From positions 4,836,001-4,900,000 of the forward strand of contig NZ_CP028158.1 of assembly GCF_003030345.1 (NCBI RefSeq): 64,000 bases of DNA, given 5' to 3'. Source of the DNA: Plantactinospora sp. BC1. GTDB lineage: Bacteria > Actinomycetota > Actinomycetes > Mycobacteriales > Micromonosporaceae. A model generated the notes under the pieces. The model did no database searches. It worked only from the letters and a program-made list of their open reading frames with translations, and was not told the origin of the DNA. Of this stretch, positions 53,514 to 55,332 are shown in pieces. Position 1 is the stretch's first letter. Each line of letters opens with the position of its first letter. Position numbers and translations under genes: made by a program.

Positions 53514-54608
53514 TCAGTTCAGGGCGGTACCTGTCGGTGCCGCCACCCGCCGGGCCCGGACCGCCGCCGCCAGGTCCGCCAGCACCTCCTCGGTCTCCGG
53601 CCAGCCGAGGCAGGCGTCGGTGATCGACTGCCCGTACTCCAGCGGCCGGGTCGGGTCCAGGTCCTGCCGGCCGGGTACCAGGAACGACTCCAGCATCAGC
53701 CCGACGATGCCGCGCTGGCCGTCCGCCATCTGCCGGGCCACGTCGGCGGCGACCACCGGCTGCCGGCGGTGGTCCTTGCCGCTGTTGTCGTGGCTCGCGT
53801 CGATCACCAGTCGCTCGGGGAGCCCGGCCGCCCGGAGCAGGGCCAGCGACTCGGCCACCGACTCGGCGTCGTAGTTGGGCTCGCCCCGGCCGCCGCGCAG
53901 CACCAGGTGGCAGTCCGCGTTCCCCCGGGTGTGCATGATCGCCGGAGCCCCGGAGACGTCGATGCCGGGGAAGACGTGCGGCACCCCGGCGGCCCGGATC
54001 GCGTCGACCGCCGTGCCGACGCTGCCGTCCGGGCGGTTCTTCATCCCGATCGGCATGGAGAGGCCGGAGGAGAGCTGGCGGTGCACCTGGCTCTCGACCG
54101 TACGGGCGCCGATGGCGCCCCAGGCCACCGTGTCGGCGATGTACTGCGGGGTGATCGGGTCCAGGAACTCGCAGCCGACCGGCAGCCCCAGCCGCAGGAC
54201 GTCCAGCAGCAGCGCACGGGCGGCCCGCAGCCCGGCGTTCACGTCGCCGGAACCGTCCAGCCCCGGGTCGTTGATCAGGCCCTTCCAGCCGACGGTGGAG
54301 CGGGGCTTCTCGAAGTAGACCCGCATCACCACCAGCAGGTCCTCGGCGTGCTCGGCCGCCGCCACCCGTAGCCGTCGGGCGTAGTCCAGGGCCGCCGCCG
54401 GATCGTGCACCGAGCACGGGCCGACGACGACCAGCAGCCGGTCGTCCTCCCGGTCGAGCACCTGGGCGACCGATCGTCGGCCGTCCAGCACGGCATCGGC
54501 CAACGCCTGGTCCAGGGGCAGTTCGTGGTGCAGCAGCGCCGGGGTGGTCAGCGGCACGATCCGGTCGATGCGCTGGTCGCTGACCCGACCCATCCCGGTG
54601 GTGGTCAT
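53514..54608 (-). CDS. aroG: 3-deoxy-7-phosphoheptulonate synthase (class I DAHP synthase)
   Basis: 364 aa from the ATG at 54608 (GAGGGAG upstream). It is a class I (AroFGH-type) enzyme: GPCSVHDPAAALDYARRL, MRVYFEKPRSTVGWKG, EFLDPITPQYIADTVAWGAIGART, HNSGK-like ASHDNSGKDHRRQ and GIVGLMLESFL. It joins PEP and erythrose-4-P, the first step of aromatic amino-acid synthesis. An upstream leader peptide with Tyr, Trp and Phe plus a U-tract terminator indicates attenuation control. Many actinomycetes also have a class II enzyme elsewhere. Confidence 0.95.
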   Translation of the reverse strand: MTTTGMGRVSDQRIDRIVPLTTPALLHHELPLDQALADAVLDGRRSVAQVLDREDDRLLVVVGPCSVHDPAAALDYARRLRVAAAEHAEDLLVVMRVYFEKPRSTVGWKGLINDPGLDGSGDVNAGLRAARALLLDVLRLGLPVGCEFLDPITPQYIADTVAWGAIGARTVESQVHRQLSSGLSMPIGMKNRPDGSVGTAVDAIRAAGVPHVFPGIDVSGAPAIMHTRGNADCHLVLRGGRGEPNYDAESVAESLALLRAAGLPERLVIDASHDNSGKDHRRQPVVAADVARQMADGQRGIVGLMLESFLVPGRQDLDPTRPLEYGQSITDACLGWPETEEVLADLAAAVRARRVAAPTGTALN

Positions 54609-54680
54609 CGTCGAGGCTCCCTCTCTGCCGACCGCCACCCCGGGGCCGGCGCCCGGGAGCCGAGCCGGCTGATCACATGG

Positions 54681-54706
54681 AAAAAGCAGGGACGATGTCC
54701 CTGCTT
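54681..54706 (-). terminator. Attenuator terminator upstream of aroG
   Basis: On the minus strand AAGCAGGGAC, loop ATC, GTCCCTGCTT, then a U-run (54685-54681): a classical intrinsic terminator, rare in this GC-rich window, placed 73 bp before the aroG start and downstream of the leader peptide. Confidence 0.85.
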
Positions 54707-54739
54707 CAGCCGGCTCTGCTGGATCTTGGTGACGTCAGG

Positions 54740-54799
54740 TCATGGCTGAGTCACCGGCTCCGGAGCCGGCTGACTAAACCATCGATACGAACGCGTCAC
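54740..54799 (-). CDS. aroG leader peptide (aromatic amino-acid attenuator)
   Basis: A 19-residue frame from GTG 54799 to TGA 54740-54742 reads MTRSYRWFSQPAPEPVTQP. Tyr, Trp and Phe codons are clustered (Y-R-W-F). A self-complementary CCGGCTCCGGAGCCGG stretch within it and a GGTGAC/GTCACC pair further on can form competing stems before the terminator at 54681-54706. TATGGT lies 7 nt before the GTG, so the leader may be leaderless. Ribosome stalling at scarce aromatic tRNAs would then let transcription reach aroG. Confidence 0.8.
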   Translation of the reverse strand: MTRSYRWFSQPAPEPVTQP

Positions 54800-54858
54800 G
54801 CTGGGAACCATACCCGATGCCGGGCCCGACCGGACCCCGCCGCCCACCTGCTGGTACG

Positions 54859-55332
54859 TCAGCGGCCCGGGTTGCGGGCGGCGATGGTGGCGTTCAGCGC
54901 GGTGGCGAAGCCGGTCCAGGCCAGGTAGGGCAGGAGCGCCGCCCCGGCCACCCGGTCCGCCCGCCAGGCTCGGTGCAGCAGGGCGGCGTTGGCCGCGTTC
55001 AGCAGGACCAGTTCGGCCAGGGCGAGCCGTGGCCGGCGGGCCCGGAAGAAGAGCGCGTTCCAGCCGGCGTTCAGGACGAGATCGATCGCGTACGCGCGCC
55101 GGAGCCTGCCGCGCTCTGCGACGCTGGTGCTGGCGTCGAGGGCGCGGGCGGCGGCGAACGCGATCGAGGCGTAGAGCGGGGTCCAGACGGCGGGGAAGGC
55201 CGCCGGAGGCGGCTGCCACGCGGGCTTGTCCAGCGACCGGTACCAGGCGGAGTTGGGGTCGGTGGCAAGCGAGCCGGCGGCGGCGGTCAGCGCGGTGGCC
55301 AGTCCGGTCTTGGCGAGTGTCGAACCGTTCAT
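54859..55332 (-). CDS. tspO: TspO/MBR family membrane protein
   Basis: 157 aa with five membrane segments. WYRSLDKPAWQPPPAAFPAVWTPLYASIAFA is the core TspO signature, and LVLNAGWNALFFRARRPRLALAELVLLNA follows it. Bacterial TspO proteins bind porphyrins and take part in tetrapyrrole or stress signalling. It lies just upstream of the aroG leader, but the attenuator has its own promoter-like sequence. Preceded by the repeat-rich intergenic region. Confidence 0.92.
   Translation of the reverse strand: MNGSTLAKTGLATALTAAAGSLATDPNSAWYRSLDKPAWQPPPAAFPAVWTPLYASIAFAAARALDASTSVAERGRLRRAYAIDLVLNAGWNALFFRARRPRLALAELVLLNAANAALLHRAWRADRVAGAALLPYLAWTGFATALNATIAARNPGR

Follow-up and report, generated by a model that had tools for sequence, protein, structure and literature searches.

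Our results suggested that the class I DAHP synthase gene of Plantactinospora sp. BC1 is very probably governed by a leaderless, ribosome-mediated transcription attenuator of the same family as Corynebacterium glutamicum aroR. Ribosome-mediated attenuation is well supported by the sequences, in which the leader, its codon content, its codon choice, a conserved helix with a terminator and the tie to aromatic genes can all be read. This kind of element is already known from C. glutamicum aroR, and the one described here joins it; what is new is its wide distribution, a Trp-less version in front of chorismate mutase in 10 genomes and the absence of a classical antiterminator.

The leader region of the DAHP synthase gene

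An earlier note on the window (the whole stretch of 64,000 nucleotides that was analysed) had described a 19-codon frame with Tyr-Arg-Trp-Phe preceded by TATGGT, a self-complementary segment, a hairpin with a U-run and then a class I DAHP synthase gene. All of these were found again, on the minus strand (Table 1). The codons of the leader are GTG ACG CGT TCG TAT CGA TGG TTT AGT CAG CCG GCT CCG GAG CCG GTG ACT CAG CCA TGA, and the self-complementary stretch GCCGGCTCCGGAGCCGG lies inside this ORF, 3' of the aromatic codons. The product of the DAHP synthase gene matched TIGR00034 (aroFGH) with 468 bits, against a cut-off of 173. Upstream of the leader there is a 157-aa ORF (54859-55332, minus strand) whose TspO-like match, at 106 bits, falls short of the cut-off of 180.

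Table 1. Features of the leader region, in coordinates of the window
Feature	Position	Strand	Remarks
-10-like TATGGT	54812-54807	minus	7-nt spacer to the leader GTG
Leader ORF VTRSYRWFSQPAPEPVTQP	54799-54740	minus	19 sense codons, GTG start, TGA stop (54742-54740)
Putative sensor codons TAT CGA TGG TTT (Tyr Arg Trp Phe)	54776..54787	minus	codons 5-8 of the leader ORF
Segment A UCAGCCGGCUC	54763..54773	minus	partner is C or a neighbour within the ORF; from folds
Segment C GAGCCGGCUGA	54706..54716	minus	3' of the stop codon, pairs with A, flush with the terminator
Terminator-like hairpin with U-run, AAGCAGGGAC...GTCCCTGCTT then five T	54706-54681	minus	from sequence and fold
Segment D CAGCCGGCUC	54662..54671	minus	closely resembles A; 3' of the terminator
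Shine-Dalgarno-like AGAGGGAGC of the DAHP synthase gene	54616..54624	minus	
Class I DAHP synthase gene (aroFGH type)	53514..54608	minus	putative regulated gene; ATG at 54608

Since TATGGT sits so close to the leader GTG, the transcript probably begins at the start codon, i.e. it would be leaderless, as the earlier note had proposed. In support of this, 86 of 101 family leaders have a TANNNT box ending 6-7 nt 5' of their start codon, compared with 17 of 1500 other ATG or GTG codons of the same regions. The same box preceded 18/33 class leaders (13/445 other ATG or GTG codons) and 16/21 named leaders (5/303). Note that a simple sigma-70 and terminator scan of 54600-54900 listed neither a promoter nor a terminator; the rule of this strict scan wants five T in the eight bases after the stem, and of the five present here two can base-pair with the AA on the 5' side. 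No Rfam cis-regulatory family matched within the window at the gathering threshold.

Conservation and codon content of the leaders

To define the family set, class I matches (E 1e-60) were collected in 121 of 150 genomes, and upstream DNA was taken from 126 of the 127 match rows. A leader was called when at least three F, Y or W fell within six residues, with a start within 14 codons and a length of at most 30 aa, over a span of 330 nt. The aromatic leader, whose absence from homologues the earlier note had named as evidence against attenuation, is kept in 101 of the 112 orthologous family regions, against 94 of 4480 shuffles (2%) and 1 of 112 antisense strands. With family counts so far above the shuffles, the leader is not a product of chance. 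None of 14 family upstream regions of diverged class I copies (49-58% identity, against 60% or more; the sole class I match of the genome in 9 of the 14) carries a leader, a split that was not blind, having been made after a first scan had shown 12 of the 14 without one. In the class-wide sample the gene was present in 54 of 256 genomes, and 33 of the 51 regions not counted before have a leader, 18 having none by the rule used. Among 80 named loci it was found in 21/26 actinobacterial ones, and in 22/54 others against a shuffle background of 17%; this background was 1-3% for the family, class and named actinobacterial regions. In a third sample all 20 regions, hand-picked from 93 rows, passed the rule.

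The rule misses some real leaders (L013, L091 and L114 were caught by other rules), probably because within an open stretch it considers no aromatic cluster beyond the first. By eye, a two-aromatic leader is visible in the family misses L148, L152, L155, L160, L164, L170 and L173, while L126 shows none and L247 is ambiguous. Among the 18 class misses, L205 has a two-aromatic leader by eye, L220 is masked and several members of f16 show none.

Aromatic-rich short ORFs (e.g. MSAKFYFYFFWYLRPLADREGC) precede class I DAHP synthase outside the actinobacteria too. At least five aromatics per eight residues were found in 17 of the 54 non-actinobacterial named loci, against 49 of 5400 shuffles (L032, L038, L040, L041, L044, L048, L052, L057, L061, L062, L064, L065, L067, L070, L072, L075 and L079); these are mostly from Burkholderiales, with others from Xanthomonas, Hyphomicrobiales and an Anaerolineae bin. 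The class II DAHP synthase gene, also present in the genome of BC1, was considered and set aside, with no aromatic leader seen by eye in about 400 nt upstream. A second class II gene of this genome (L259 and L260; G000:C1:7875408-7876496) was matched in two pieces, each with a reported open frame of 446 aa, and lies about 20 kb away from the complete gene (L258).

The order and number of the aromatic residues vary among the leaders (YRWF, WYSWF, FYWF, YWRF, WYWRF, YFWF, RYPYF) and the residue class is constant. Tyr, Trp and Phe occur together in 99/101 family, 24/33 class and 19/20 named leaders. Within the first 16 codons, Phe is the last aromatic in 126 of 139 distinct ORFs; 12 ORFs were scored as Trp, and in some of these the Trp stands after the cluster. 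Moreover, codon choice in the leaders is the inverse of that in the genes, UAU and UUU being prevalent in the former and next to absent from the latter. Thus, family leaders have 99 TAT to 1 TAC and 107 TTT to 12 TTC, while the DAHP synthase bodies of 20 named relatives have 107 TAC to 1 TAT and 115 TTC to 1 TTT. G or C occupies position 3 in 9% (30/324) of the leader Tyr and Phe codons, in 69-72% of the other leader codons and in 91% of the gene codons. In such genomes Tyr and Phe have one kind of tRNA each, and slower wobble reading of UAU and UUU would therefore be expected. According to the accessible text of PMC1183508, sensitivity varies with the synonymous codon used, but the 'rare codon' rule is an oversimplification.

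R1, an RNA model built on the sister group, matched the window element at 54677-54799 (E 7.8e-7). Over the whole genome of BC1 this is the one convincing site, two others having E-values of 0.28 and 0.98. In the class sample R1 matched in at least 43 of 256 genomes, a lower bound because the stricter filters missed the window's own element. An aromatic-pathway gene lies downstream in all 43; when coordinates were compared, the match stood just upstream of the class I gene in 33 of them. Among the 20 hand-picked regions of the third sample, 13 matched the whole of R1 with E-values of 0.001 or below, and the match was weak or partial in the remaining 7, which have YFWF or YYWF leaders.

In the other 10 of the 43 genomes, all of them from family f16 and lacking class I matches at 1e-80, the R1 match precedes a chorismate mutase (loci L294-L303, in G280, G197, G383, G341, G262, G223, G367, G289, G163 and G271). 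Nine of the proteins combine a partial DAHP_synth_1 match with CM_2, and L300 is a bare CM_2; at L298 the DAHP match is below the cut-off, beside CM_2. The partial DAHP synthase I domain, which comes before the chorismate mutase part, is possibly degenerate. The leaders of this set have Trp in 0/10, Phe in 10/10 and Tyr in 6/10, those of L296 and L297 having a single aromatic codon. A leader without Trp is what a gene of the Phe/Tyr branch should need, which makes these loci a natural control, although they count as few independent events because all come from one family of genomes. Nor is the Trp rule strict, since Trp is also absent from 9 of the 33 class leaders before DAHP synthase.

RNA structure and the proposed switching step

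The 126-nt RNA of the element folds at -58.3 kcal/mol (z -5.4), and none of 200 shuffles folded as well. The helix between segments A and C, which connects the ORF with the stretch that precedes the terminator, and the terminator itself covary in the sister group, as the earlier note had expected of the stems. In MAFFT alignment A2, which comprises 22 sister-group sequences and was made without fitting to structure, 92% of the cells are paired across both elements and 13 of the 26 pairs show two-sided changes. None of 500 shuffles matched the observed values on any of five measures, and slid controls were far lower. Note that this count covers the sister group, alignment A1 of the window's own group misplacing the terminator arms; there the A-C helix rests on complementarity because its GCCGGC core is invariant. 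Minimum free energy structures (MFEs) were examined for 36 dereplicated sequences; 27 of them have a helix that stops 0-1 nt short of the terminator (A-C in 23, another in 4), and one has no helix beside it.

The earlier note had expected the terminator to be kept in homologues. This is so for most leaders, a hairpin followed by at least three U being present in 108 of 154 by our own rule, but not for a clade with YFWF or RWYRF leaders. The clade or clades with YFWF, YWF or RWYRF leaders (e.g. L008, L010, L014, L015, L019, L020, L150, L242 and L249) are without a U-run terminator and have a GC-rich C-D hairpin in its place; control in these may therefore differ.

From this layout we infer a leaderless start, ribosome stalling and an effect on termination. 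Ribosomes would begin directly at the 5'-terminal GTG. If charged Tyr-, Trp- or Phe-tRNA were short, the ribosome would slow at TAT, TGG or TTT, which in the window element begin 14, 8 and 5 nt before segment A; if charged tRNA were plentiful, it would run through A to the stop codon. The position of the ribosome would set A-C pairing, and RNA polymerase would accordingly halt at 54681 or enter the gene. By analogy with ilvBNC, a ribosome parked before A may leave A-C formed and so hinder the terminator; we hold this with low confidence, the chances being about evenly balanced, and the opposite polarity, in which A-C aids termination, is possible. In the 29 of 36 sequences with A-C in the MFE, the median distance to A is 16 nt for Tyr, 11 nt for Trp and 8 nt for Phe codons. 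With the ribosome at the last aromatic codon, median A-C pairing dropped from 0.75 to 0.41 when a downstream footprint of 13 nt was modelled, while with one of 9 nt most of it was retained; the polarity of A-C thus depends on the footprint assumed.

The textbook switch implied by the earlier note could not be seen in this analysis. An upstream partner for either terminator arm passed the 5% shuffle threshold in 3 of the 36 dereplicated sequences each, about the expectation, and the predicted probability of the terminator had a median of 0.85-0.88 in all modelled ribosome states, falling below 0.5 in 1/36. The partnerless arms and a terminator predicted in every ribosome state rule against a classical antiterminator. 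One that shares a boundary with the terminator, as in ilvBNC, is a weak candidate, since the overlap of A-C with the terminator averages 0.3 bp and reaches 0.8 bp or more in just 7/36. End-product control codons in the leader ORF and a predicted intrinsic terminator before the gene are both present, as in trp-type attenuators; because a mutually exclusive antiterminator was not found here, we do not class the element as trp-type, and it may still work alike. We entertain, tentatively and at somewhat less than an even chance, the wider reading that this is an actinobacterial family of leaderless RNAs which retunes its codon set to the downstream enzyme, uses rare UAU and UUU as sensors and controls termination via a helix flush on the terminator instead of a competing antiterminator. 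The codon sets would then be Tyr, Trp and Phe for DAHP synthase in most lineages, and Phe or Phe with Tyr for chorismate mutase.

Control could instead be translational, with the leader ribosome setting the partner of C, either A or D, and D otherwise closing the Shine-Dalgarno region and the U-run hairpin being secondary. Segment D can pair with C around the terminator, and its role is uncertain. C pairs with the stretch after the terminator better than shuffles do in 54/95 family, 12/33 class and 8/16 named sequences, most often in the window's family, and the clade without a U-run terminator keeps the C-D hairpin. However, predicted access to the Shine-Dalgarno site shifted by over 0.2 in just 12 of 149 cases (with C free, 9 were more open and 3 less), so that a translational switch via C-D is unsupported. 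Moreover, the terminator stem covaries in the sister group, and C. glutamicum aroR is described as transcriptional in the accessible part of PMC11802643. We therefore consider translational control improbable.

It is rather unlikely, and would be compatible with attenuation, that a single amino acid is sensed (Phe as in C. glutamicum, or Tyr) and that the other aromatics are passengers. The different distances of the three residues from A would fit such a sensor, and for AroR a response is reported to Phe but none to Tyr (PMC11802643, in the text accessible), but for one input the joint presence of Tyr, Trp and Phe in nearly all family leaders would be superfluous. Thus, of the earlier claim that one peptide monitors all three amino acids, the codons for each are there, while a response to all three is unsupported, given what is reported of AroR. 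That the cluster is no sensor at all, and keeps a leaderless 5' end unstructured or has a role as a peptide, the terminator setting a fixed level, strikes us as highly improbable. UAU and UUU are A/U-rich and would lower structure, and the other leader codons are also less often G/C at position 3 than those of genes, so the A/U-rich codons could in part reflect selection for an open 5' end. Against this, the Tyr and Phe codons lie far below the other leader codons, the residue class is kept while order and number vary (YRWF, WYSWF, FYWF, YWRF), and the content tracks the downstream enzyme, Trp being absent before chorismate mutase. Attenuation through aromatic codons is the reading we retain.

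Relation to known attenuators

C. glutamicum aroR is reportedly leaderless, in the work of Neshat et al. in 2014. An F-Y-F leader precedes C. glutamicum aroF (PMC4046766, accessible text), and AroR responds to Phe, not to Tyr, and acts on transcription, according to what could be seen of PMC11802643, citing Neshat et al. 2014. Like aroR-aroF, the window element has an aromatic leader peptide upstream of a class I DAHP synthase, with Y-R-W-F, including Trp, in contrast to the F-Y-F there. Two loci with W-R-F-Y-F leaders (L304 and L305) matched R1 with E-values of 2.7e-6 and 5.8e-8, which are rough, coming from a 13-kb search. Their genus (g142) appears to be Corynebacterium, in part from the WRFYF motif itself. 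As likely Corynebacterium homologues these loci match R1, while aroR itself was compared by description; the element is thus probably related to the Corynebacterium leaders in sequence and structure.

The nearest experimentally dissected layout, and with low confidence the likeliest mode here by analogy, is that of Corynebacterium ilvBNC. As presented in the accessible parts of PMC11857589 and PMC10272879, its three-hairpin model also has a leader ORF, a helix of the ORF region beside the terminator and a terminator hairpin. In C. glutamicum the antiterminator lies directly against the terminator and the two have a boundary trinucleotide in common, an arrangement supported by mutants (PMC11857589); here the sharing is slight, and ilvBNC senses branched-chain amino acids.

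Streptomyces trpE and trpS (PMC8079986 and PMC1262725, as far as accessible) likewise have actinobacterial leader peptides, leaderless in S. lividans and followed by hairpins, but these sense Trp only and precede other genes. None of the eight S. lividans leaders given in the accessible text of PMC8079986 stands before DAHP synthase, and the part of a 2005 survey that was available (PMC1262725) reports no conserved RNA structures upstream of actinobacterial phenylalanine/tyrosine operons. In other bacteria, the uORFC-13-1 motif of Acholeplasma aroF likewise places Phe codons in a short ORF ahead of a DAHP synthase gene and includes a terminator stem; it differs in having a ribosome-binding site, and the accessible portion of PMC8632094 describes no Y-W-F set. 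Nor is one described, in the text available of PMC6429828, for two shikimate uORFs with F and Y, which precede aromatic-pathway genes of other bacteria. Among the literature matches listed, none described a Y-W-F leader across actinobacteria, in a search mainly of freely available papers.

As the first enzyme of the shikimate pathway, DAHP synthase supplies the whole of aromatic metabolism, and with it many actinomycete natural products. As no antiterminator that competes with the terminator was found, it is natural to ask how a stalled ribosome would prevent termination in these GC-rich bacteria. Codon-specific sensing can be tested by simple swaps, for which the inverted codon choice and the Trp-less chorismate mutase versions offer the ground. 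Finally, the wide leader family suggests that actinobacteria commonly control DAHP synthase through the charging of aromatic tRNAs.
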